Source: Desulfotomaculum sp. (lineage in GTDB: Bacteria > Bacillota > Desulfotomaculia > Desulfotomaculales > Desulfohalotomaculaceae). Taken from it: 45,985 nt of DNA. The stretch spans positions 1 through 45,985 of the forward strand of contig JACDOL010000009.1 of NCBI GenBank assembly GCA_017656165.1. Reading direction: 5' to 3'. The notes beneath the pieces are model-generated. The model had not been told where the DNA came from and ran no database searches. It saw only the letters and a list, made by a program, of their open reading frames with translations. Both the position numbers and the translations under genes were made by a program. This document shows, in pieces, positions 2,418 through 17,987 of the stretch. The number at the start of each line of letters is the position of its first letter. Position 1 is the stretch's first letter.

Positions 2418-5400
2418 ATGAAATTTGCCAAAGTACATTTTTATATGATAACTAATTTACTGCTGCTCTTTAGCTTTTTAAGTATTTTTGTCTTTGTGCC
2501 GGCCGGTTCTGCTGAAGAAATAAACGATGGTCTTAAAATTGTTATAGTTTCACACGAAACCAACGCCCTGGTAAATGCCAACCAGCAGTTGAAAGAAGAA
2601 GGCTACAGCTTTTCTTTGAAAATATTTAATCCCAAATATGCGGAAGACGAAGAAAGAAAAAAGGATTTACAACAGGCTTTGGCTCAGGCGGATATCATCT
2701 TGCTGGACATGATTGGGAATAAGACGTTGAATGCACTTTCTCCAATGTTTTCCGATTTGAAAGAACAAAAGATTTTAGTTACACGAAGTGTAGATGTCTC
2801 TTCCGAAATACCCCGGGCAGATACTTCCTGGGACGAAGCTTTGGCGCCGTATTTCAGTTATGGTGGTGTAGAAAATATGCGGCGGCTTTTACTTTACCTG
2901 TTAAATAATTTTGGAGAAATTAATGTCTCGCAAAAATTGGAACCGGTGGTACTGGAAGGAAGCTTTGCCTATCATCCCGCTGCCGATAAAGTTTTTAATA
3001 CTTATGAACAATACAAAAGCTGGTATGAAGAAAGCGGTAAATATCAGCCTGGTGCCCCGTGGATTGGTATTTTAACGTACGATAGTTCTTATAAAAATGC
3101 AGATTTCAAAATGTATACGGATCTTCTACAGGAATTGGAGAAAAATGGGGCCAATGCAATATTAGTATTTGCCGGTGGAGATAATATCAAGGCAGTGCGT
3201 GATTTTTTCATGGATGATGGCAAGAGCAGAATTGATTGTTTGCTTGCAGCCACGTACTTTAACTTCGTCTATGGGAGACCTGAAGAAGGGATAAAGCTCT
3301 TTCAAGAAATGAACATACCTATCATGACACCTATCTACAGCCGGCAGCTCGATAAATGGGAAAATGATATTTCCGGTATTTCCGACGATGTGCCCTGGCA
3401 GGTTGCCTTTCCGAAGCTGGAAGGAAGAATTGAACCCGTGCTTATTGGAGGTTCTAAGGTAGTTGGGACAGATAAAGATACGGGTGCAATAATAGAACAA
3501 AAGGTGGCCATACCCAACAGGGTAGAAAGGATTGCCAAAAGGGCAATAAACTGGGCCAAACTGCGCCATAAACCCAATCATGAAAAGAAAGTGGCACTAA
3601 TATATTACAATTACGGCGGGGGAAAGGATGGTATTAGTGCATCCTATCTCAATGTAGAGAGAAGTATTGCCGAAATTTTAAAGTCTCTTAAAAAGGAAGG
3701 CTATACTGTAAAAGAAAGTTTGCCGTCAGAAGAACTTTTGGAAAAGATGCTGGCCAGCGGGAGAAATGTGGGAAGCTGGGCACCCGGTGAATTGGAAGCA
3801 CTTGTTCAAAATGGAGCAATAACTATACCCGTGGAGCAGTATTTAAAGTGGTTTGAGGAGCTTCCCCAAGAACTGCAGGAAAAGGTTGAAGATGAATGGG
3901 GTCCTGCTCCGGGAAATATTATGGTATATAATAATGAACTGGTTTTACCGGGAATTATGCTGGGTAATGTCTTTATTGGCCCGCAACCAATGCGCGGCTG
4001 GGGGGATGAACCGGATAAAATAACCCACTCGCCCACACTGCCGCCAACCCACCAGTATCTGGCCTTTTATTTCTGGCTCCAGAAGGAGTTTAAAGCTGAT
4101 GCAGTAGTACATGTGGGTACCCACGGGACTCTGGAATGGCTGCCCGGAAGAAGTGTGGGGCTCGGCAAGAATGACTGGCCTGATGTATTGCTGGGCAATA
4201 TACCCAATATTTATCCATACATTGTCAACAACCCGGGAGAAGGTACCCAGGCAAAGCGGCGGGGCTATGCTGTGATAATTGACCACTTGACGCCCCCCAT
4301 GGTTAAACCGGAACTATATGGCGAGTTGGAAGAACTGATGATGCTATTAAGCAATTATGAAGTGGAAGAAGCCAAAAGTGATACAAAAAGGCTAGAACAG
4401 CTGAAGGAAGAAATACTTGAAAAAATAAAAAGTAATAACATTCATAACGCACTGGGACTGGATTTGGTAAATACAGAATTTAGCCGGATTTTTTCACAGG
4501 TTGAGGAATATCTTTTTGAAATGAAAAGTGAATTAATGCCGTACGGGTTGCATACCTTTGGTAAGCCTCCCCGGGATGATTTGTTGGAGGAGATGACACG
4601 TTCCATAGTGGAATATGACCCGGAAACTCGTAAAGATGCTGCTGGTGAAATTAAAAATAACCTGTACATGACAACCCGTGAAATTGACAATTTACTTAAG
4701 GCCCTGGAGGGACAGTATATTGAACCCGGTCTTGGCAGGGACCCGGTACGTATTCCGGATGTAATGCCCACAGGAGCAAATTTTTTCTCTTTTGATCCGC
4801 GAACCGTGCCTGATAAAGCTGCCTGGGAAACGGGTAAAAAAGCGGCTGACCGCTTGCTTGAAAATTTCCTGGCGCAAAAAGGCAGGTATCCTGAAAAAGT
4901 TGGGATAGTACTCTGGGCTACGGAGACGATGCGAAGCCAGGGAGAAACGGTGGCAATGATACTTCGCCTGATTGGTGCTGAACCAAACTGGGATAAAAGG
5001 GGACGGGTGAAGGGTGTTAATATAGTACCCATTGAAGAACTGGGTCGTCCCCGGGTGGATGTGGTAGTAACCATGTCGGGGCTGTTTCGTGATACCTTTT
5101 CTTACATGGCTGAAGTACTGGATGAGGCCTTGAGAAAGGTTGCCTTACTGGAGGAGAAGCCACAGGACAACTGGGTCAGGAAACACTTTGCGGAAGATTT
5201 GATTTATTATCAGCAGCAGGGGTTAAGCTATGAAGAGTCCAAGTTCCTGGCCGGTGCCCGTATTTTTAGTGAGGCTCCCGGTACCTACGGAACTGGTGTG
5301 GCAGAAATGACTGAGGCTACCAGTGCTTGGGAGGACAGCTCAGAGCTGGCTGAAACTTATCTGTCGCGCATGTCATATATTTACGGTAAAAATGCCTACG

Positions 5401-6401
5401 GGAAAAAGGCTGATACTGTTTTTCAAAAGACGCTAAATGGCATAGAAGTTGCGACTCAGATTAGAGACTCCCTGTGGGGAGTACTCGACAATGATGATGT
5501 ATATCAGTACCTGGGAGGACTGGCCCTGGCTGCGGAAGAGGTTTCCGGCAAAAATGTTTCTATTTATATTAGCAATACCCGGAATGCCAGAAATCCAAGG
5601 GTAGAGTCCATAAAACGTTTTTTAAGCACCGAACTTGCTACCCGTGTTTTCAATCCTGACTGGATAGAAGGGATGCTTAAAGAAGGTTACTCAGGATCCA
5701 CTACTATTAACAAGCATATCGGGCATCTTTTTGGAGTGGATGCCACAATGAAAGCGGTTGATAACTGGCAGTGGCAGCAGGTGGCTGAAACTTTTGTATT
5801 TGATGAGAATATCAGGCAGCAACTGACGCCCCATTCATTACAATCACTGATAGGCTGGACCGTGGAGGCAGCGAGGCGCAAAATGTGGGATGCAGACGAA
5901 GAAACTCTAAGTAAGTTGGCTGATACTTATATACAAAGTGTTATTAAATACGGAGTAGTTTGCTGTCACCATACCTGTGCCAATATAGTATTCAACCAGT
6001 GGATAGCACAACATGCAACATTGTCAGCTAATAAAATCGATGAGTTTGCAAAAACCTTTCAAAAAGCCACTAATAATAGTTTAAACCTTATAAAGGTAAC
6101 AGTACATGAGGAGGGTATTGAACCGGTATCCGAAATAAAACCTAAGAAAAAAGCTATCAAAAATAAATTGTTATCATTGGAAAAGGAAAGCAAAGAGGCT
6201 ATACAAGTAGGGGATACGGAAGAACAGAACAAGCCAAAACCAAAAGCATATGAAATAAAAGTAGTTGAGAAGGAAGAGAGTTCGGCCACATCTGAAAGTA
6301 GTGTAACCTTCTATGCTTTACTTGGTGCATTCCTATTTGCTTTAATTTTTGTTGCTGGCTATGTAATCTTCAATAATAAAAAAAGTAGACGAAGTATTTA
6401 G
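2418..6401 (+). CDS. Secreted, membrane-anchored CobN-like cobalt/magnesium-chelatase large subunit
   Basis: A 1327-residue CobN/ChlH-family protein. Family signatures include HVGTHGTLEWLPGRSVGLG (about residue 565), YPYIVNNPGEGTQAKRR (about 600) and ARIFSEAPGTYGTGVAEM (about 945). Cytoplasmic CobN inserts cobalt into hydrogenobyrinate diamide with CobS and CobT. This one differs: it opens with a signal peptide (residues 1-33, ending PAGSA-EE) and closes with a Lys/Glu/Ser-rich linker, one helix (about 1296-1318) and a basic tail, so the catalytic body should sit outside the membrane. AGGGAGGTG precedes the ATG by about eight bases. It is the last gene of the riboswitch operon, with no AAA+ partner nearby. 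I infer metal chelation, extraction or corrinoid handling at the cell surface, powered by the ExbB/DUF2149 pair. Confidence 0.88.
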   Translation: MKFAKVHFYMITNLLLLFSFLSIFVFVPAGSAEEINDGLKIVIVSHETNALVNANQQLKEEGYSFSLKIFNPKYAEDEERKKDLQQALAQADIILLDMIGNKTLNALSPMFSDLKEQKILVTRSVDVSSEIPRADTSWDEALAPYFSYGGVENMRRLLLYLLNNFGEINVSQKLEPVVLEGSFAYHPAADKVFNTYEQYKSWYEESGKYQPGAPWIGILTYDSSYKNADFKMYTDLLQELEKNGANAILVFAGGDNIKAVRDFFMDDGKSRIDCLLAATYFNFVYGRPEEGIKLFQEMNIPIMTPIYSRQLDKWENDISGISDDVPWQVAFPKLEGRIEPVLIGGSKVVGTDKDTGAIIEQKVAIPNRVERIAKRAINWAKLRHKPNHEKKVALIYYNYGGGKDGISASYLNVERSIAEILKSLKKEGYTVKESLPSEELLEKMLASGRNVGSWAPGELEALVQNGAITIPVEQYLKWFEELPQELQEKVEDEWGPAPGNIMVYNNELVLPGIMLGNVFIGPQPMRGWGDEPDKITHSPTLPPTHQYLAFYFWLQKEFKADAVVHVGTHGTLEWLPGRSVGLGKNDWPDVLLGNIPNIYPYIVNNPGEGTQAKRRGYAVIIDHLTPPMVKPELYGELEELMMLLSNYEVEEAKSDTKRLEQLKEEILEKIKSNNIHNALGLDLVNTEFSRIFSQVEEYLFEMKSELMPYGLHTFGKPPRDDLLEEMTRSIVEYDPETRKDAAGEIKNNLYMTTREIDNLLKALEGQYIEPGLGRDPVRIPDVMPTGANFFSFDPRTVPDKAAWETGKKAADRLLENFLAQKGRYPEKVGIVLWATETMRSQGETVAMILRLIGAEPNWDKRGRVKGVNIVPIEELGRPRVDVVVTMSGLFRDTFSYMAEVLDEALRKVALLEEKPQDNWVRKHFAEDLIYYQQQGLSYEESKFLAGARIFSEAPGTYGTGVAEMTEATSAWEDSSELAETYLSRMSYIYGKNAYGKKADTVFQKTLNGIEVATQIRDSLWGVLDNDDVYQYLGGLALAAEEVSGKNVSIYISNTRNARNPRVESIKRFLSTELATRVFNPDWIEGMLKEGYSGSTTINKHIGHLFGVDATMKAVDNWQWQQVAETFVFDENIRQQLTPHSLQSLIGWTVEAARRKMWDADEETLSKLADTYIQSVIKYGVVCCHHTCANIVFNQWIAQHATLSANKIDEFAKTFQKATNNSLNLIKVTVHEEGIEPVSEIKPKKKAIKNKLLSLEKESKEAIQVGDTEEQNKPKPKAYEIKVVEKEESSATSESSVTFYALLGAFLFALIFVAGYVIFNNKKSRRSI

Positions 6402-8658: not shown

Positions 8659-9291
8659 ATGGGAGGTAAGGATGAAAAACAGGTAAAAGCCATGCTGGAA
8701 GCAGCCAAAGGTACAAGTTACTACGGCCCGGTACTGCTGGCGGTAACAACCGGCATGCGCCGAGGAGAAATACTGGGCCTCAGGTGGCAGGATGTAGACT
8801 GGGAAAATAAAGCACTGTTGATAAGGCAGACCATTCAATATACACCGGAACAAGGCATCATATTCAAGCAGCCTAAAACCGCCGGCAGCAGAAGGGCAGT
8901 AAAGATTTCTTCTACCATTATTGAATTTCTCAAAAAGCACAAGGTAGAGCAGAACAAAATAAAACTGCTGCTGGGCCCGGGTTTTTATGAAGATAACGGG
9001 CTGGTTTTCTGCCAAAACAACGGCAGGCCCATGCACCCGGATTCCGTTTCCAGCTGGTTCCCGAAGTTCATGGAGAAAAACGGGCTGCCTAAGATAAGGT
9101 TCCACGATCTGCGGCACACCCATGCCACTTTGCTTTTAAAGCAGGGCATTCACCCTAAAGTGGTGTCAGAACGCCTGGGCCACGTGGGAATTTCTATTAC
9201 CATGGATATTTACTCCCACCTGCTCCCAGGAATGCAGGAAGAAGCGGCAAATAAAATTGATGAGGTGGTTTTGGGTGATGAAGTTAAGTAG
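8659..9291 (+). pseudogene. Truncated phage/ICE tyrosine integrase (catalytic domain only)
   Basis: The 210 residues form a complete tyrosine recombinase catalytic domain: Arg in TTGMRRGEILGLRW, a Lys in PKTAGSRRAVK, HDLRHTHATLL, LGHVG and the nucleophile in MDIYSHLLPG. Family members carry an arm-binding and a core-binding domain (about 150 residues) in front; here stop codons lie directly upstream of ATG 8659, and that ATG overlaps what looks like a ribosome site, so the N-terminus is lost. The gene ends about 100 bases from the 3' end of tRNA-Thr, the usual position of an integrase at its attachment site. I infer an element that inserted here and was later deleted. Confidence 0.8.
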
Positions 9292-9528: not shown

Positions 9529-10080
9529 TTATCTGTCTGTTAACAGTTTATACAAATCATTCCAGTTATCACAGCGGGGGCCTGTCCACTTCCATTTTAA
9601 GTTGTGGGGGGCATTAAACAAAATAACTTTTATACCTGCCTCTGCCAGCTGTACGGCATTGTTGTAATTATCCTCCACCATTACATCTACCTTCAACTGC
9701 TGACATGTCTCCACCTTGTCATGGCTGTTTAACATGTGCAGCTGGTGAAAGGGAATCTTGTGACGTTTAAGCCATTTAATAGTGATTTTCCCCAGCCTTG
9801 GGCTGCGGGCTGTAATAATATGAATTTGATGCCCCTGGGAAGCCAGCTTCTGTAAGTATTTATCTGCACCGGGCATAAGCGGAGACTTATCACAGATATC
9901 TTCTTCCCGTTCTTTCATTAACTGGATAAATTGTTCCCTAGTTATGTTATAAATCCTGGTTACATCATAGTCAGTAACATCATTTATTTTAATCTGCTCA
10001 CCAGTGTAAGTATTAAGTTCTTCAATTAAAAGCAGCAGGTTGTCGCATATTATACCGTCCAAATCACAGCCTATTATCAT
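9529..10080 (-). CDS. HAD-superfamily 5'-nucleotidase/deoxyribonucleotidase-like protein (NT5C type)
   Basis: About 184 residues. MIIGCDLDGIICDN carries the HAD nucleophile motif DxDG, IHIITARSP is motif II with a Thr, and VDVMVEDNYNNAV supplies the acidic motif, matching the NT5C family that removes phosphate from (deoxy)nucleoside monophosphates. I start it at ATG 10080, directly before the conserved MIIG strand; the open frame continues upstream into the neighbouring gene. It begins 10 bases after the GbsR-type gene ends, so the two are probably one transcript. Its substrate, and why it rides with an osmotic-stress regulator, are unknown. Confidence 0.75.
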   Translation of the reverse strand: MIIGCDLDGIICDNLLLLIEELNTYTGEQIKINDVTDYDVTRIYNITREQFIQLMKEREEDICDKSPLMPGADKYLQKLASQGHQIHIITARSPRLGKITIKWLKRHKIPFHQLHMLNSHDKVETCQQLKVDVMVEDNYNNAVQLAEAGIKVILFNAPHNLKWKWTGPRCDNWNDLYKLLTDR

Positions 10081-10090
10081 TTTTACCCAT

Positions 10091-10648
10091 CTACTCGCTT
10101 TCTTCTGGCTTAGGAATGAACTCATATATTTTTCCGGTCTCTACAGCTTCTACAAGCTGCTCCAACCATAAGTAGTACTTCTTGGCATTCTCCAATTTTT
10201 TTAAATCCTTTTGAGCCGCTTCTCTTACCTGCTCGTCATCACTTTCAGCCAGTTCCTTGATAATGGGTTCTGCCTTATTTATTGCTTTTAAATTAACTTC
10301 CATTTCACGACGCCATCCATGGCAGAAAAACTCGGCAAACGTTTTGAAGAAATCCTGTTCTGCCTGGTAGAGATCTTTTCGAACTCCTTTCTGCCACACT
10401 TTCTCTACTACCTTTTTCTCCAGCAGCGTCCTCGCGGTATTGCTCATACTGGTTTTACTCATCCCCATGGCTTTAGCCATTTCATCCAGCGTCATGGGTT
10501 TCTCTAAAAAAAACATGGTGCCGTAAAGCCTACCGGTGGAAGGGGTTACACCATAAAAATCCATTGTTTCTGCCATGGCATTTATGATTAAGTCACGAGC
10601 TTCATTTAATTTTTTATATTCCTCCGAATTAACATTATTTTTCTGCAC
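10091..10648 (-). CDS. gbsR: GbsR/MarR-type transcriptional repressor
   Basis: A 185-residue regulator with a winged helix near residues 35-95 (MTLDEMAKAMGMSKTSMSNT as the recognition region) and a helical tail typical of GbsR. In Bacillus subtilis GbsR is a choline-responsive repressor of the choline-oxidation genes gbsAB and the choline transporter opuB. It starts at GTG 10648 after AGGGAGC. Divergent to it are an alcohol dehydrogenase and aldehyde oxidoreductase operon, and two TACAGT-type palindromes lie in the shared control region; a third precedes the OpuA-type transporter. This arrangement supports a choline/glycine betaine function and self-regulation. The ligand is inferred. Confidence 0.8.
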   Translation of the reverse strand: MQKNNVNSEEYKKLNEARDLIINAMAETMDFYGVTPSTGRLYGTMFFLEKPMTLDEMAKAMGMSKTSMSNTARTLLEKKVVEKVWQKGVRKDLYQAEQDFFKTFAEFFCHGWRREMEVNLKAINKAEPIIKELAESDDEQVREAAQKDLKKLENAKKYYLWLEQLVEAVETGKIYEFIPKPEESE

Positions 10649-10684
10649 GAGTAAAGCTCCCTTCGTTAGAAATACAACCTACAA

Positions 10685-10711
10685 ATACAGTATATATAAT
10701 TTATACTGTAT
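10685..10711. promoter_or_regulatory. Candidate GbsR operator 1 (gbsR side)
   Basis: ATACAGTATA (10685-10694) is mirrored by TATACTGTAT (10702-10711) with seven bases between. It lies 37 bases upstream of the gbsR start and shares the ACAGT/ACTGT half-sites of operators 2 and 3, suggesting autoregulation. Confidence 0.65.
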
Positions 10712-10728
10712 GTCAAAGTTAAAACCAC

Positions 10729-10757
10729 TTGAATTTTAATTCTTTATATAATATAAT
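10729..10757 (+). promoter_or_regulatory. Sigma-A-type promoter of the alcohol dehydrogenase operon
   Basis: TTGAAT (10729-10734) and TATAAT (10752-10757) are separated by 17 bases. Transcription would begin near 10764, inside operator 2, so a bound repressor would block it. Confidence 0.7.
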
Positions 10758-10759
10758 TT

Positions 10760-10781
10760 ACGTACAGTTTAAACTGTACGT
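10760..10781. promoter_or_regulatory. Candidate GbsR operator 2 (perfect 22-bp palindrome)
   Basis: ACGTACAGTTT at 10760-10770 is followed directly by its exact complement at 10771-10781. It covers the predicted transcription start of the dehydrogenase operon and is the strongest of the three related palindromes. Confidence 0.75.
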
Positions 10782-10838
10782 TCTTTATTTTTTATTTATA
10801 CGTAATTTAATTAACTAATTGAAAGGGGATGTTACATA

Positions 10839-12029
10839 ATGTTTATGCGGTTTGAACGGATGCACAGGGTAAAAGAATTTGAGATTCCTACCGTTATGAA
10901 AAACGGTATTGGTGCTGTAAAAATTGTTGGTAAAGAAGTTAAAAAGCTTGGAGTATCAAAACCTTTAATAGTTACCGACCAAGGTGTTTTAAATGCCGGC
11001 CTTGTGAATCCGGTAATTGACAGCTTGAAAAAAGCAGGCCTGCCTTACGCTCTCTATGATAAGGTAATCCCTAACCCGGACCTGGAGTGCGTGGCTAAAG
11101 GTACAGAAATGTACAAAGCTGAAGGCTGCGACGGCTTAATTGCTGTTGGCGGCGGAAGTTCCATGGATACCGCCAAGGCAGTTGGTGTAGAAATCTCCCA
11201 CGGGGAACCAGTGCTTGAATACGAATGTGCTGAAGGCAAAAAAACGCTGTCAAAGCGCATTCCAACCCTTATAACTATACCTACCACCGCAGGTACCGGA
11301 AGTGAGGTAACACAGTGGGCGGTAATCACTGACCCGGCCAGGCAGTTTAAATTTAATGTGGGCGGCCCCCTGATTGCTGCTCACCTGACCATAATTGACC
11401 CCGAGCTGCACGTTACTATGCCCCCGCTGGTAACTGCAGGTACCGGCATGGATGCTCTATGTCATGCCATAGAGTGCTATACCTGCCATTATGCTCAGCC
11501 AGCAACCGATGCAGTGGCCCTTTTGGCCATTGAATACGCTGCTAAATATCTGCGCCGGGCTGTGGCTAACGGCCAGGACATTGAAGCCCGCTACGGAATG
11601 GCCATGGCAGCTATGCTGGCCGGACTGTCTTACGGAAGTGAAAGTGCCGGGGCGGTGCATGCTATGACTCAAACCTTGGGCGGCATTGTACCGGTGGCAC
11701 ACGGCACGGCAGTGGCAGCAGCTCTAGGCCCGGTAATGGAATACAATTGGATGGGAGAACCGGAAAAGTTCGCCCGCATTGCCCAGGCCATGGGTGTAAA
11801 CACCTTTGGAATGACTGCAGAAGAAGCTGCTTTAGCTGCAGTAGAAGCTGTTTATGAACTGGTGGATGACCTGAACATACCTTCCCTGGAAGAACAGGGG
11901 GTATCACCAGATTTAATTCCCCGGTTGGCGGAAGAAGCCTACAAGGATCCGCAAACGGTGGGCAACCCCAGGGATATTGACGTTAAGGGTTATGAAGCCA
12001 TCTACCGCCGCTGCTTTGGCTTAGATTAA
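10839..12029 (+). CDS. Iron-containing alcohol dehydrogenase (GbsB-like, candidate choline dehydrogenase)
   Basis: A 396-residue group III (Fe-dependent) NAD(P) alcohol dehydrogenase. Nucleotide-binding GGGSSMDTAK (about residue 105) and TIPTTAGTGSEVT are present, as are the metal ligands in GMDALCHAIE, SAGAVHAMTQ and PVAHGTA. The ribosome site AAAGGGGATG precedes ATG 10839. The family includes GbsB, which oxidises choline to betaine aldehyde, but also ethanol and methanol dehydrogenases, and sequence alone does not settle the substrate. The GbsR-type regulator, the operators and the nearby OpuA-type transporter favour choline; the following aldehyde oxidoreductase would take the aldehyde onwards. 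Ethanol oxidation via acetaldehyde is the main alternative. Confidence 0.88.
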   Translation: MFMRFERMHRVKEFEIPTVMKNGIGAVKIVGKEVKKLGVSKPLIVTDQGVLNAGLVNPVIDSLKKAGLPYALYDKVIPNPDLECVAKGTEMYKAEGCDGLIAVGGGSSMDTAKAVGVEISHGEPVLEYECAEGKKTLSKRIPTLITIPTTAGTGSEVTQWAVITDPARQFKFNVGGPLIAAHLTIIDPELHVTMPPLVTAGTGMDALCHAIECYTCHYAQPATDAVALLAIEYAAKYLRRAVANGQDIEARYGMAMAAMLAGLSYGSESAGAVHAMTQTLGGIVPVAHGTAVAAALGPVMEYNWMGEPEKFARIAQAMGVNTFGMTAEEAALAAVEAVYELVDDLNIPSLEEQGVSPDLIPRLAEEAYKDPQTVGNPRDIDVKGYEAIYRRCFGLD

Positions 12030-12056
12030 ATAAAATATTAGTGGAGGTAATAGGTT

Positions 12057-12485
12057 ATGCGCACAGTCATTTACACTAATTTTGACCTCTGCACCGGCTG
12101 TGCTATCTGCCAAATGATATGTTCAGAGCATAAAACCGGGGGTACAAACCCCCGGTTGGCTCTACTACGCATATCTCCCGGCAGAAATGGCCTCATTCAT
12201 CAGCCGGAAGTCTGCCAGCAGTGTCAAAATGCATTCTGCCTAAAAGTGTGCCCCGTGGAGGCGGTTTACCGGAATAAGGACAACGGAGCGGTAATAATAG
12301 ACGACAGCAAGTGCACCGGCTGCGGCCTGTGCGTAAAAGCCTGCCAGAAAAGCATGATTATGTTGGATAAAGAAAACAAAGCTGCCCGCAAATGTGATTT
12401 ATGCGGCGGCGACCCGTTATGTGTACAGTTCTGTCCCACCGGGGCGCTGCAAATAGTAAAACTGGGAGGGGAAAAAGATGAGTAA
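12057..12485 (+). CDS. Polyferredoxin-type 4Fe-4S electron-transfer protein
   Basis: A 142-residue iron-sulfur protein with four cysteine clusters: CTGCAICQMIC, CQQCQNAFCLKVCP, CTGCGLCVKAC and CDLCGGDPLCVQFCP, enough for about four cubane centres as in the HycB/DmsB type. GTGGAGGT precedes the ATG. It overlaps the following aldehyde:ferredoxin oxidoreductase gene by eight bases, so it is very likely that enzyme's electron-accepting partner. It has no signal peptide and should be cytoplasmic. Confidence 0.9.
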   Translation: MRTVIYTNFDLCTGCAICQMICSEHKTGGTNPRLALLRISPGRNGLIHQPEVCQQCQNAFCLKVCPVEAVYRNKDNGAVIIDDSKCTGCGLCVKACQKSMIMLDKENKAARKCDLCGGDPLCVQFCPTGALQIVKLGGEKDE

Positions 12486-14334
12486 TGGCTGGATGGGAAA
12501 ATTTTTAACAGTTAACCTCTCCACCGGAAATGTAAATATTGTGGATGTGCCCCAGTGGCTGCAGGACCAGTACGTGGGGGGTAAAGGTTATGCCATGAAA
12601 CTTTTATACGACCTGCTTCCTGAGGGTACTGACCCGTTAGCCCCTGAAAACCCCCTGATGTTCTTCCCTGGCCCGCTGACTGGTACATTAGCCCCTTCCA
12701 TGCGCGCCTGCGTGGCTACCAAATCTCCCCTTACCGGCCTGCTGCTGGATTCGTACTTCGGCGGTCATTTCGGCCAGGAAATAAAATATGCAGGGTATGA
12801 CGGCATCATTATTACTGGCCGTTCAGATAAACCTGTATATCTTTGGATAAATGATGATAAAGTTGAACTGCGGGATGCAGGTCACCTATGGGGAACTGGT
12901 GCCCTGGAAGCCAACAGGGCTATTAAGGACGAGCTGGGTGACAGCACTATAAAAGTATCCACCATCGGCCCGGCCGGTGAAAACACCGTCCGCTTTGCCC
13001 TTATCTCCTGCGAGTACAACCGGCAGGCCGGACGGGGCGGCGCCGGTGCAGTGATGGGGTCTAAAAACTTAAAAGCCGTTGCCATCCGCGGCAGCAATAC
13101 TGTCAGAGTAAGCAATCGCAAAGAGTTCTTATCGGCTGTTCAGCAGGGTTACGTTGAACTTAAACAAAGCCCGGATGTACAGGCACTGGTAGATACCGGC
13201 ACTGCCTCTGCAGTTCCCTTTGCCAACGAAGCAGGACTGCTGCCCAGGCGAAACTACCAGGATGGAACTTTTGACCTGGCCGACAGCATTAGCGACCTGG
13301 GGCAAAATAATCATTACTGGCTGCGCAGTGAAGCCTGTGCCGGGTGCCCAATCCGGTGCAGCAAGGTAGGGTACATTCGAACCGGACGCTATGCTGGTAC
13401 CATTTCAGACATTGTTGAATATGAATCAGCCGGGCTTTTAGGCTCCAACCTGGAAATCGGTGATGCCAAGGCAGTAACATACCTGTCAGCATTATGTGAC
13501 AGCTTAGGTATTGATACCATCAGTGCCGGCAGTGTGGTTGGTTTTGCCCTGGAAGCTGCAGAAAAAGGTTTAATAGATAAAAGTACACTGCCCCAGAATG
13601 CCAATTTCGGAAACGCAGAGGCAGCGGCAGAAATTTTAAAGAATATAGCTTACAGAAAAAATGAGCTGGGTAATATATTGGCCGAAGGGGTAAAACGAGC
13701 TGCAGAAAAAATTGGCAGTGAATCTGAAAGCTTTGCAGTGCACATTAAAGGACTGGAAGTACCCGCCTGGGGACCAAGGGGCAACCCGGGTATTGCCTTG
13801 GCACTGATGACTGCCGACCGCGGCGGCTGCCACCAGCGGGGCCTACCGCTGGGCTATGAACTGGCTGGTGAACCATGGAAAGGCAGGATACTTGACCGGC
13901 TTGCCTGCTCCGGCAAAGCAGAAATAATTGTCCATGAACAAAACTACTTAACAGCACTGGATACACTGGTAAAATGCGACTTTGGCCACTTTGGCATCAG
14001 CGCAGGCACATACTTAAGACTGCTTAAGGCATGTACCGGCAGGGAATTCAGCGAAGAACAGTTCCTGGAACTGGGTGCAAAAATATGGAACCTGGGAAGG
14101 TTATTTAATTTAAGAGAAGGGTTAAATCCGGCTGAAGATAAGCTGCCCAAACGCTTTATGACCGAACCCCTCCCCAGCGGACCATGTAAAGGGCATTATT
14201 TTACTGAAGCAGATGTAAAACTGATGCTCACCGAGTATTATAACCTTCGGGACTGGGACAGCAGCGGTTATCCCACTAAGGAAACAATTTGTAAATATGG
14301 GTTAAATGATAACCAAAAATTTGAGATTAAGTAG
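12478..14334 (+). CDS. aor: Aldehyde:ferredoxin oxidoreductase (tungsten/molybdenum pterin enzyme)
   Basis: A 618-residue enzyme of the AOR family that oxidises aldehydes to carboxylates, passing electrons to ferredoxin. The N-terminal segment with GKGYAMKLLYDLLPEG and FFPGPLTGTLAPSM is typical of the pterin-binding domain; CAGCPIRCSK (about residue 285) and a late Cys in LVKCDFGHF supply the 4Fe-4S cluster, and EYESAGLLGSNL is a family signature. It is translationally coupled to the ferredoxin before it and shares the operon with the alcohol dehydrogenase. In this GbsR-controlled setting I infer oxidation of betaine aldehyde to glycine betaine, a role held in bacilli by the unrelated NAD enzyme GbsA. 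General aldehyde detoxification cannot be excluded. Confidence 0.9.
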   Translation: MSNGWMGKFLTVNLSTGNVNIVDVPQWLQDQYVGGKGYAMKLLYDLLPEGTDPLAPENPLMFFPGPLTGTLAPSMRACVATKSPLTGLLLDSYFGGHFGQEIKYAGYDGIIITGRSDKPVYLWINDDKVELRDAGHLWGTGALEANRAIKDELGDSTIKVSTIGPAGENTVRFALISCEYNRQAGRGGAGAVMGSKNLKAVAIRGSNTVRVSNRKEFLSAVQQGYVELKQSPDVQALVDTGTASAVPFANEAGLLPRRNYQDGTFDLADSISDLGQNNHYWLRSEACAGCPIRCSKVGYIRTGRYAGTISDIVEYESAGLLGSNLEIGDAKAVTYLSALCDSLGIDTISAGSVVGFALEAAEKGLIDKSTLPQNANFGNAEAAAEILKNIAYRKNELGNILAEGVKRAAEKIGSESESFAVHIKGLEVPAWGPRGNPGIALALMTADRGGCHQRGLPLGYELAGEPWKGRILDRLACSGKAEIIVHEQNYLTALDTLVKCDFGHFGISAGTYLRLLKACTGREFSEEQFLELGAKIWNLGRLFNLREGLNPAEDKLPKRFMTEPLPSGPCKGHYFTEADVKLMLTEYYNLRDWDSSGYPTKETICKYGLNDNQKFEIK

Positions 14335-14402: not shown

Positions 14403-15578
14403 TTATACCAGAGCTGACAAAACAGCTACCCTGGAAATTATTCCCATTAATTTATTGTTTTCATTTACTACTGCTATGGGGTACTTGGAATCTGTAGCCT
14501 TGGGAATTAAATCCTGCAGGTATGCCTCCTCGTCCGTGGTATAGTACAAATCAGTTCTAATAATATCATTTAAGGATTTATTTTCTTTCACTGCCCGGAC
14601 GGCATCATCAATGGTTGCCAGGCCCAGCAGTTTTCTCTGGTTATCAACAATAAACACACTGGATATACCGTTAGATTTCATTTCTTTAATGGCTGCTTTA
14701 AGGCCTTCTTTAGAAAAAACTAAAGCACTTGGTTTATACATAACGTGCTTGGCCTGAAATACCTTGGAACGGTCAATGTCCTGGATAAAATTTTCTATAT
14801 ATTCACTTTCCGGTGAGGCCAGTATTTCTTCCGGGGTGCCGATTTGTTCAATCTTCCCATCTTTCATTACCGCAACCCGGTCACCAATTTTAAAGGCCTC
14901 ATTTATATCGTGGGTAATGAAAATAATGGTCTTTTTCAGCCTTGACTGCAGTTCCATCAGTTCAAACTGCATTTCCCGGCGAATAAGCGGGTCCAAGGCA
15001 CTAAACGGCTCATCCATTAATAAAATGTCCGGGTCGTTGGCCAGTGCCCGGGCCAGGCCGACACGCTGCTGCATCCCGCCGCTGAGCTCCCCGGGCATTT
15101 TTTCCTCCCAGCCGGACAGGCCGGTGCTGGCTAAGGCCTGTTTAGCAATTTCGCGTCTTTCTTCCCTGGGTACCCCTCTTACCTCCAGCCCGTATTCAAC
15201 ATTTTCAATTACATTCCGGTGGCTTAAGAGTCCGAAATGCTGGAAAACCATTGCTATTTTTTTCTGCCGCAGCTCCCTTAGTTTTGTGCTGTCGTATTCT
15301 AAAATGTTTTCCCCATCAATATATATTTTCCCTTCAGTGGGCTTGTTTAAGAGGTTCAGGCAGCGAATTAAAGTTGACTTGCCGCTGCCCGACAGGCCCA
15401 TGATTACAAATATTTCCCCTTCATTTACTTTAAATGAAGCATTATATATACCCACTGTATGGCCGGTTTTTTTCAGAATTTCATCTTTGGAAACACCCTG
15501 CTTTACCAAGTCTATAACCGACTCGGGTTTACTGCCAAAAATTTTTGTTAAATTCTGCACCTCTAACTTAACCGTCAT
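14403..15578 (-). CDS. opuAA: Glycine betaine/proline ABC transporter ATP-binding protein with CBS domains (OpuAA/ProV)
   Basis: 391 residues. Walker A GLSGSGKST (about residue 60), signature LSGGMQQRVGLARAL, Walker B DILLMDEPFSALDP and the switch ITHDINEA make up the ABC domain. A C-terminal pair of CBS-like modules (about 270-391) is typical of ProV/OpuAA, where it senses ionic strength or c-di-AMP. It is the last gene of the operon, 21 bases after the permease. ATP hydrolysis here drives uptake of compatible solutes across the membrane. Confidence 0.92.
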   Translation of the reverse strand: MTVKLEVQNLTKIFGSKPESVIDLVKQGVSKDEILKKTGHTVGIYNASFKVNEGEIFVIMGLSGSGKSTLIRCLNLLNKPTEGKIYIDGENILEYDSTKLRELRQKKIAMVFQHFGLLSHRNVIENVEYGLEVRGVPREERREIAKQALASTGLSGWEEKMPGELSGGMQQRVGLARALANDPDILLMDEPFSALDPLIRREMQFELMELQSRLKKTIIFITHDINEAFKIGDRVAVMKDGKIEQIGTPEEILASPESEYIENFIQDIDRSKVFQAKHVMYKPSALVFSKEGLKAAIKEMKSNGISSVFIVDNQRKLLGLATIDDAVRAVKENKSLNDIIRTDLYYTTDEEAYLQDLIPKATDSKYPIAVVNENNKLMGIISRVAVLSALV

Positions 15579-15599
15579 TTTCTAACTCCCACTTTCATT

Positions 15600-16457
15600 T
15601 TAGCTTTCTTCGTTAACTTTATACCTCCTGGCAATTCCCTGGGATAACCTGTCTATTATGATGGCCAGGATAACAATTCCCAGCCCAGCTTCAAATCCCC
15701 GGGCAACATCTATCCTGTTTAATGAGATAAGCACTTCCATTCCCAGGCCCTTGGCACCAACCATAGAAGCAATAACTACCATTGCCAGTGCCATCATGGT
15801 AGTCTGGTTAATACCAGCCATTATGGTGGGCATGGCCTGGGGAAGCTGCACTTTAGAAAGTATCTGCCAGGGAGACGAGCCAAATGATGCCGCCGCCTCC
15901 ACCATCTCCTTGGAAACCTGGCGAATAGCCAGGTTTGTCAACCTGATTACCGGGGGTATGGCATAGACAGTGGTAGCAAAAACGGCCGGAACTTTACCCA
16001 TGCCAAACAGCATCATAGCTGGAATTAAGTACACCATGCTGGGCATAGTCTGCATGAAATCCAGTACCGGCCTCATAAAGGATTCTGTTAACCTACTGTA
16101 AGCCATTAAGATTCCCACAGGAATTCCCAGTAAAATGGAAATAAGAACAGAAGTCAATATAATAGCTAAAGTGTACATCATCAGATCCCAGTAGCCAAAA
16201 GTACCGATTAAAAACAATAATAGTGGAAACAGCACTGCTGCAAGCTTGGAGATATAACGCCAGCTTAAAATGAAAACAGCAGCAATCACCAGCCACCAGG
16301 GAAGCCAAAGCAAAAAGTCTTCTACGTAAATCATAAACCACAAAATTACACTGCTGACGGCTTCAAATATACCGCCCAGGTTGGTGGTAAGCCAATCTAC
16401 AATTTTCTTTACATAAATCCCCAGTTCAAATCGCCATTCTTCAGGAAAATTACTCAT
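15600..16457 (-). CDS. opuAB: Glycine betaine/proline ABC transporter permease (OpuAB/ProW)
   Basis: A 285-residue membrane protein of ProW type with about eight helices. The EAA loop that contacts the ATPase is seen as MVEAAASFGSSPWQILSKVQLPQAMPTIMAGI. The GIPVGILMAY and TMPSMVYLIPAMMLFGMG stretches are characteristic of the betaine permeases. It is encoded between the binding protein and the ATPase, separated from the former by an intercistronic hairpin. Confidence 0.92.
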   Translation of the reverse strand: MSNFPEEWRFELGIYVKKIVDWLTTNLGGIFEAVSSVILWFMIYVEDFLLWLPWWLVIAAVFILSWRYISKLAAVLFPLLLFLIGTFGYWDLMMYTLAIILTSVLISILLGIPVGILMAYSRLTESFMRPVLDFMQTMPSMVYLIPAMMLFGMGKVPAVFATTVYAIPPVIRLTNLAIRQVSKEMVEAAASFGSSPWQILSKVQLPQAMPTIMAGINQTTMMALAMVVIASMVGAKGLGMEVLISLNRIDVARGFEAGLGIVILAIIIDRLSQGIARRYKVNEES

Positions 16458-16519
16458 TATTACCAGCTGCAGGTGCAGCCTTTTTCACCTCTCTGCCTAA
16501 ATAATTAGTCAACCCAAAT

Positions 16520-16547
16520 AGGTTGGCCAGTTTATACCAGCCAACCT
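16520..16547 (-). other. Intercistronic stem-loop between binding protein and permease genes
   Basis: AGGTTGGC (16520-16527) pairs with GCCAACCT (16540-16547) around a 12-base loop. There is no T run after it on the minus strand, so it is more likely an mRNA-stabilising or partial-stop structure that lets the binding protein be made in excess. Confidence 0.55.
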
Positions 16548-16558
16548 AATTAATAAAC

Positions 16559-17578
16559 TTACTGGATAGCTGCCTTAACTTTCTCTGCTGCTTCATCAGG
16601 TACCCATTTAGTCCATAGATCTTCATACTTTTTCAAGAAGTATTCTGCTGCATCTTCAGGCGCAGCTTTGTTGTCCTGCATGTAAGCCAGGCAGTCAGCA
16701 GTTATTTCTGCACTTGTTTGGTAGTGGCTTAAAAATTCAACAACTTCAGGTGCTTTTTCTTTTAACTCGGGTGGTACTATAATAGTCAACCTTTGGGATG
16801 GAAAATCACATTTATAATTATTTTCCCATTTTTCATCATCATACGGTGCCACTTTCAACAGTGTAAGATCGTATTTACCACTGATCCAGGTGGGCTCCCA
16901 GTAATAACCAACCCAGGGTTCTCCGTTTTTAACAGCTGTGGTAAGTGAAGTGGCCAGTGCAGTACCAGAGCCCGGCTGGAAGTAATTAAAATATTTATCC
17001 AGGCCAAATTCCTTTACCTGGGCAGCTAAAACCGTATCAGCAAACCAGCCCGGGATAGAACCATAAATCCTGCCCTTGTCCGGGTCCTCTGGGTCTTTAA
17101 ACAGCTCCCAGTACTTAGGAAGGTCATGTATTGACTCCAAGTCCGGAGCCATGGGCTCTATCCCTCTCTCTGGATCCCCTTTAATTACGTATGTAGGAAC
17201 GTATAGTCCCTGCTTATTGTCGTCATAGTTTACAGATACTTCCAATACTTCGCTGTTTTCAACTGCTTCATTGTACTTGTCGATAATGTTGCCTGACCAC
17301 ACTTCCATATAAACATCAATATCGCCATTTTTAACTCCTTCAAAGGAAGATGTCTCAGAACCAGGCATAACATCTGTTTTATAACCGTAACCATGTTCTA
17401 AAATCTTCATTGCGATGGCATTATGTACCCGAATACTGTCCCAACCGGCATCAGCAAAGACAAGGGTTTTCTTAACTTGCCCATCCTTACCTGGCCCACT
17501 GCAGGCTGCAGCCACCAACGCCAGGGTGATAAGTAATGAAACAGCAAAAACCAGCTTCGCTTTCTTAAAGAAACTCAC
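16559..17578 (-). CDS. opuAC: Glycine betaine ABC transporter substrate-binding lipoprotein (OpuAC/ProX)
   Basis: About 339 residues. The N-terminus KKAKLVFAVSLLITLALVAAAC is a lipoprotein-type signal with the cysteine at about residue 26, so the mature protein is tethered outside the membrane. The body is of OpuAC/ProX type, with Trp-rich segments that form the aromatic box for quaternary ammonium groups (ADAGWDS, MEVWSGN, GYYWEPTWISG). I chose GTG 17578, about nine bases after GGGGGAG; the open frame extends upstream. First gene of its operon, preceded by operator 3, a c-di-AMP riboswitch, its terminator and a dispersed repeat. Confidence 0.92.
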   Translation of the reverse strand: MSFFKKAKLVFAVSLLITLALVAAACSGPGKDGQVKKTLVFADAGWDSIRVHNAIAMKILEHGYGYKTDVMPGSETSSFEGVKNGDIDVYMEVWSGNIIDKYNEAVENSEVLEVSVNYDDNKQGLYVPTYVIKGDPERGIEPMAPDLESIHDLPKYWELFKDPEDPDKGRIYGSIPGWFADTVLAAQVKEFGLDKYFNYFQPGSGTALATSLTTAVKNGEPWVGYYWEPTWISGKYDLTLLKVAPYDDEKWENNYKCDFPSQRLTIIVPPELKEKAPEVVEFLSHYQTSAEITADCLAYMQDNKAAPEDAAEYFLKKYEDLWTKWVPDEAAEKVKAAIQ

Positions 17579-17614
17579 TTCACTAATCTCCCCCTCATTA
17601 TTAATTACCGCCAA

Positions 17615-17692
17615 GATATTTACACTCCGAAGACACGCCGGCACATATAATAGACCGAATTTGCCGGCTGCCGTTTTCTCTGGTAAATAACT
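17615..17692. repeat. Dispersed repeat, copy 1
   Basis: Shares the core GGCTGCCGTTTTCTCTGG and flanks AATTTGC and GGTAAATAACTTGG with copy 2. Its ends GATATTTACACT and GGTAAATAA are imperfect inverted repeats. It lies in the 5' untranslated region of the opuAC gene, between the riboswitch terminator and the ribosome site. Confidence 0.65.
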
Positions 17693-17969: not shown

Positions 17970-17987
17970 GTACAGTATGTACTGTAC
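17970..17987. promoter_or_regulatory. Candidate GbsR operator 3 at the transporter promoter
   Basis: GTACAGTA-TG-TACTGTAC is a perfect inverted repeat with the same TACAGT half-site as operators 1 and 2. On the minus strand TTGTAC overlaps it as a possible -35 box, with TATATA 16 bases on as -10, upstream of the c-di-AMP riboswitch. Binding would occlude RNA polymerase. Confidence 0.68.

Follow-up and report, generated by a model that had tools for sequence, protein, structure and literature searches.

A 45,985-nucleotide stretch of a Desulfotomaculum sp. genome (contig JACDOL010000009.1 of assembly GCA_017656165.1, positions 1 to 45,985; hereafter the window) carries a gene cluster in which an aldehyde:ferredoxin oxidoreductase (AOR) very probably acts as a betaine-aldehyde:ferredoxin oxidoreductase, standing in for the NAD-dependent betaine-aldehyde dehydrogenase (BADH) GbsA in the choline-to-glycine-betaine module of a strict anaerobe. 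A preliminary description of this DNA had placed AOR at the second step of such a pathway, under a GbsR-type regulator, and every genomic test that we ran supports that proposal: the alcohol dehydrogenase and the regulator belong to curated equivalog families of the choline pathway, the genome has no BADH, and the neighboring transporter shares the operator of the enzyme operon. The genes and sites concerned are listed below, with families assigned by Pfam and NCBIfam profile matches and cut-offs being the curated NCBIfam values.

10091-10648, minus strand: cudC/gbsR, predicted GbsR-type choline-sensing repressor (NCBIfam NF047500 choline_R_CudC, 224.8 bits, cut-off 218)
10686-10710: wide dyad TACAGT-N13-ACTGTA near the regulator start, its half-sites identical to those of the operator
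10763-10778: candidate CudC/GbsR operator TACAGTTTAAACTGTA at the gbsB operon promoter
10839-12029, plus strand: gbsB, NAD-type iron alcohol dehydrogenase, choline dehydrogenase (NF053866 CholDhdGbsBBac, 702.8 bits, cut-off 550)
12057-12485, plus strand: small subunit, WorS/AorA-like (Pfam Fer4 domains; 16 Cys, enough for four [4Fe-4S] clusters)
12478-14334, plus strand: AOR/WOR large subunit, proposed betaine-aldehyde:ferredoxin oxidoreductase (Pfam AFOR_N 265.6 bits, AFOR_C 397.4 bits)
14403-15578, minus strand: ATPase, ProV type, of a betaine/choline ATP-binding cassette (ABC) transporter (TIGR01186 proV, 440 bits, cut-off 326.6)
15600-16457, minus strand: permease of the same transporter (best NCBIfam match TIGR03416 choline permease, 290 bits, below the equivalog cut-off of 363)
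16559-17644, minus strand: substrate-binding lipoprotein of the same transporter, OpuAC domain (PF04069, 196.6 bits)
17971-17986: second operator copy TACAGTATGTACTGTA, upstream of the transporter operon

In the pathway that we propose, the ABC transporter would bring in choline or betaine, and choline would free the CudC/GbsR repressor from two operators, that of the gbsB-worS-aor operon and that of the transporter. GbsB would then oxidize choline to betaine aldehyde with NAD+, and betaine aldehyde would be converted to glycine betaine by a Class II enzyme with tungsten or molybdenum, made up of AOR and the four-cluster small subunit. Electrons would reach ferredoxin by way of the small subunit, a reaction that replaces the NAD-dependent one of Bacillus GbsA. 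Glycine betaine would accumulate as an osmoprotectant in this organism, and some relatives may also degrade it. The genomic evidence argues strongly for betaine aldehyde as the AOR substrate; we propose ferredoxin as electron acceptor and osmoprotection as purpose with moderate confidence, and the metal would be tungsten.

The gbsB-worS-aor operon (10839-14334, plus strand) and the divergent regulator gene (10091-10648, minus strand) had both been recognized in the preliminary description, and the profile matches confirm the family of each gene. Only 27 nucleotides separate the alcohol dehydrogenase and small-subunit genes, and the small-subunit and AOR genes overlap by 8, a spacing that suggests a single operon. 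The regulator shares 48% identity with GbsR from a gbsAB locus (L038), which it also matches in part of a phenylalanine cluster at residues 100-108 (FFKTFAEFF); it can be assigned to the CudC/GbsR type, its response to choline being predicted. The transporter (14403-17644, minus strand) points towards the AOR operon. It had been described as an OpuA-type neighbor; a betaine/choline-type transporter is indeed next door, but it is of the ProVWX/ChoXWV type and lies outside 10091-14334.

The small protein, previously called a polyferredoxin, is an iron-sulfur protein that, because of its 16 cysteines and its structural relatives, looks like an AOR small subunit rather than a free ferredoxin. In the PDB it matches best the small subunits of two AOR complexes, 9mqx (9mqx_E) and 8c0z (8c0z_C), and 6x6u_B/6x1o_B, likewise AOR-complex small subunits, are also among the best; the best match of the large subunit is 1aor. 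With 16 cysteines in the small subunit and no gene for an FAD-binding subunit within the operon, the pair would form a Class II tungsten oxidoreductase (WorLS).

The association of this AOR with choline genes extends well beyond the window. The phylum was sampled with 299 genomes, of which eight have a GbsB score above its cut-off, and in seven of these eight, the window's genome included, the small subunit and AOR adjoin gbsB. The eighth locus (L038), which has no AOR, carries GbsA between gbsB and the regulator (BADH profile 771 bits, cut-off 668.6). We also gathered AOR orthologues from genomes of the order, the phylum and GTDB and built a quick LG+G4 tree, in which 33 AORs at least 48% identical form one clade (SH-aLRT 99) spanning Bacillota and delta-type lineages. 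By our reading of the neighborhoods, gbsB or betA adjoins AOR at 31 of these 33 loci, and the remaining two (L091, L129) end at a contig edge on the informative side. AOR paralogues at most 44% identical and with long flanks have neither gene as partner. Fisher's test on this hand count gives 4e-10, a figure that is only indicative since the loci are related. The set of GbsR, alcohol dehydrogenase and AOR, a recurrence that the preliminary description had asked of other genomes, is found in many families, often with betaine transporters.

Other AORs occur beside or apart from this clade. The window's genome has three more distant ones (26-32% identical) on contigs C22, C54 and C35 (L045-L047), and that on C54, about 4 kb from two general iron alcohol dehydrogenases, could belong to an alcohol-oxidizing set. 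In Desulfoscipio geothermicus DSM 3669 (L089) the choline AOR is followed by another OpuX-like gene and by a second AOR that is only distantly related (33%), at L089:12125-15020, the same as L078:11943-14838.

The choline dehydrogenase next to AOR is itself exchangeable. BetA, a flavoprotein that is not homologous to GbsB, partners AOR at four loci (L088, L097, L108, L115; TIGR01810, 823-864 bits, cut-off 732). Three of these are delta-type loci, while L088 belongs to the sister species MES5, whose AOR is 81% identical to that of the window, and in the tree the BetA-partnered AORs arise from at least two separate points. At L088 the operator and the small-subunit gene are separated by a stretch that holds a 70-bp remnant of the gbsB 3' end, with the same stop codon. 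The remnant gave no match in blastn; direct pairwise alignment scored 58, and the best of 200 shuffles scored 52. BetA is an oxidizing flavoenzyme. AOR thus stays in place while the choline dehydrogenase is swapped for another, unrelated enzyme that also makes betaine aldehyde, an exchange not expected if AOR served alcohol oxidation.

Ahead of the AOR-BetA set, two of the BetA loci (L108:376-3647 and L115:3936-9438) have a gene that resembles a GntR-type regulator and an ABC transporter of the branched-chain type (Liv-like), which is perhaps for choline or betaine. At L088:11917-12231, directly after AOR, lies a gene for an EbrB/SugE-like small multidrug-resistance transporter of the quaternary ammonium type, with a score below the cut-off.

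The enzyme that AOR would replace is missing where it would be expected. Neither the operon nor the genome (99.9% complete) contains a BADH, the only PF00171 matches being of the AdhE and ProA types (calls that are our reading of frame length and score). PF00171 matches above 95 bits are lacking in eight of 14 genomes with AOR, and of nine genomes traced from other AOR loci none has a BADH over the curated cut-off.

Regulation ties the enzymes to the transporter. The preliminary description had noticed GbsR-like palindromes at the promoters; we find them at 10763-10778 and, as the wide dyad, at 10686-10710. The 16-bp form TACAGT-N4-ACTGTA has exactly two copies in 2.29 Mb, before gbsB and upstream of the transporter, where base composition predicts about 0.2 per genome, and the reversed control pattern does not occur anywhere in the genome. 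The enzyme operon and the transporter hence carry a common candidate operator at their promoters, to which the repressor is predicted to bind. This arrangement resembles the Bacillus subtilis GbsR system, in which enzyme and transporter promoters have in common an A/T-rich inverted repeat whose half-sites are 4 bp apart (PMC7396694). The sister species (L077/L088) has three sites of the same kind as the window, at corresponding positions, with the wide dyad at L077:8047 and TACAGTTTATACTGTA at L077:12408, upstream of a choline-binding protein gene. The exact 16-bp operator recurs in L077 and in L039, in the latter between the regulator and small-subunit genes, where L040 and L043 have TACAGT-N4-ATTGTA, with one variant half-site. 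These four were the only other loci with the operator or this variant among those scanned, and its sequence seems to diverge with phylogenetic distance.

The active site offers a possible signature of the substrate. All four [4Fe-4S]-cluster cysteines are present (C287, C290, C294, C500) and kept in 33/33 clade members, and the second-shell residues Thr243, Glu313 and His448 (numbering of Pyrococcus furiosus AOR, PfAOR) are kept as T242, E316 and H452. The position of PfAOR Tyr427 is Trp431 in the window's AOR; across the clade it is Trp in 32 members and Phe in one, and Trp occurs there in none of the 51 other AORs of the set. Tyr427 presumably holds the aldehyde (PMC12096430), and most, though not all, aldehyde-oxidizing members have Tyr at this position (PMC12096430, PMC13328260). 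Aromatic cages bind trimethylammonium in betaine-binding proteins and probably also in GbsR (PMC6207618), and by analogy it is plausible that Trp431 binds the trimethylammonium group through a cation-pi contact.

Several observations weigh against this assignment. In six of the 14 AOR genomes a different aldehyde dehydrogenase is encoded away from the cluster; counts over the 33 loci are not independent, since these loci are related, and most loci come from metagenome bins. The regulator score barely exceeds the CudC cut-off (224.8 vs 218), and the gbsB stub in the sister species is a short alignment (70 bp) whose score of 58 is to be set against 52 in shuffles. Finally, P. furiosus WOR4, which has Trp at the same position, shows no aldehyde activity (PMC12096430); WOR4 also lacks one cluster cysteine that the window's AOR retains.

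The most obvious competing idea, already raised in the preliminary description, is that the pair of alcohol dehydrogenase and AOR oxidizes ethanol, methanol or other simple alcohols and lies near betaine genes by chance. Such a role has been proposed for Desulfofundulus and for sulfate reducers that use ethanol, couples of this kind are on record for methanol and ethanol (PMC11505543; PMC6491731), and AORs often accept a broad range of aldehydes (PMC12096430). We nevertheless consider this role very unlikely, because AOR has had its partner exchanged for an unrelated choline dehydrogenase, the flavoprotein BetA, in several lineages of the same clade. The alcohol dehydrogenase of the operon is moreover the GbsB equivalog and not a general alcohol dehydrogenase, the operon shares its operator with a betaine transporter, and the separate AORs on C22, C54 and C35, one of them near two general iron alcohol dehydrogenases, could oxidize alcohols instead. 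On GbsB identity, BetA replacement and the common operator we reject the ethanol/methanol role. It is also very unlikely, if slightly less so, that AOR acts on another amino aldehyde, for example from the breakdown of dimethylethanolamine or carnitine, and that the choline enzymes were merely recruited. In favor of this reading, genes for a branched-chain-type ABC transporter stand beside AOR at L108 and L115; yet betaine aldehyde is the common product of the two unrelated choline dehydrogenases that partner AOR, and the GbsB locus without AOR carries GbsA in its place.

Two further explanations keep the substrates and change the direction or the purpose. AORs can turn acids into aldehydes with low-potential donors, as two reports indicate (PMC9295118, PMC10816221), and the pathway might run in reverse, with AOR reducing betaine to betaine aldehyde at the expense of reduced ferredoxin and GbsB making choline. 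A choline-type repressor together with a choline/betaine importer indicates choline as the input instead. Replacement of gbsB by betA is in keeping with oxidation, BetA being an oxidizing enzyme, and we know of no need for choline in such cells; to this reversal we give the least credence of all. More serious, although still rather improbable, is a catabolic module in which AOR oxidizes betaine aldehyde just as we propose, recovering low-potential electrons for energy, and the resulting betaine undergoes demethylation or reduction. Fermentation of choline and betaine is known from a Peptococcaceae bacterium (PMC8163858). MttB-family methyltransferases occur in 8 of 17 AOR genomes and full-length GrdB-type reductase subunits in four, so that the same module may feed betaine catabolism in other carriers. 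The window's genome and its sister G335, however, contain neither the MttB family (betaine demethylase) nor GrdB (betaine reductase), and for that reason its retention as an osmoprotectant is more likely than its consumption for betaine in these genomes; breakdown as the purpose in the window's genome is rejected on the same ground.

The cluster shares features with several known systems. Like GbsR-GbsAB-OpuB of B. subtilis, the cluster has a GbsB choline dehydrogenase, a GbsR-type repressor and a betaine/choline ABC transporter, but the NAD-dependent GbsA is absent and AOR with an iron-sulfur subunit is found instead. In the delta-type lineages and MES5 the clade is partnered by BetA, as in proteobacterial BetAB, with AOR in place of BetB. 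An iron alcohol dehydrogenase adjoining AOR also recalls the methanol/ethanol systems of Desulfofundulus kuznetsovii and relatives, for which no choline linkage is described; the alcohol dehydrogenase of the window belongs to the GbsB family. The Class III AOR of Aromatoleum aromaticum (8c0z) has homologous large and small subunits but falls outside the choline-linked clade, and differs in its regulator, its pathway and its FAD/NAD subunit, which has no counterpart in the window's operon. A similar architecture is that of the Class II WorLS enzymes, among them PfASOR/WOR5 and CbGOR, which pair a large AFOR subunit with a small subunit of four [4Fe-4S] clusters and with which the window's enzyme would share the predicted acceptor, ferredoxin (PMC13328260). 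Known Class II members use aliphatic sulfonates or glyceraldehyde 3-phosphate (PMC13328260), and PfASOR/WOR5 and CbGOR differ from the window's AOR in its Trp for Tyr427 and its linkage to choline genes.

A 2026 survey of 4,064 tungsten oxidoreductase (WOR) sequences lists 5 of 92 clades as having a defined role and mentions neither choline nor betaine in its main text (PMC13328260). In the open-access literature searched (supplements excluded) we found no description of an AOR in choline-to-betaine conversion, in agreement with the preliminary description, which knew of none. One paper uses 'betaine aldehyde' for WOR5 acting on taurine (PMC12096430); taurine has no N-methyl groups, and we take the term as a naming slip and not as a precedent. 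It is quite probable that the clade represents a class of tungsten betaine-aldehyde:ferredoxin oxidoreductases that is both widespread and undescribed, that has Trp for the active-site Tyr as its mark, that displaced the NAD-dependent BADH among strict anaerobes from two or more phyla, and by which osmoprotectant synthesis also yields reduced ferredoxin. The clade would gain a physiological substrate from unusually direct genetic evidence, with the Trp for Tyr427 as a testable signature, and osmoprotection would be coupled to low-potential electrons. Such a class would explain how anaerobes without BADH can make glycine betaine, a capacity that may be overlooked in anaerobe genomes if the search covers BetB/GbsA alone.

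Three neighbors of the cluster complete the picture of the window. Directly after the regulator lies a gene for a HAD/NT5C-family phosphatase (9529-10125, minus strand), with a conserved counterpart (61% identical) at the same position in the sister species. A tyrosine recombinase of the phage integrase family is represented by its C-terminal part without the N-terminal part (8659-9291, plus strand), a probable mobile-element remnant. Farther upstream, a protein of the CobN/magnesium-chelatase family (2418-6401, plus strand; 1177 bits) begins with what resembles a signal peptide, carries a hydrophobic segment at its C terminus, and is apparently exported, unlike the usual CobN.

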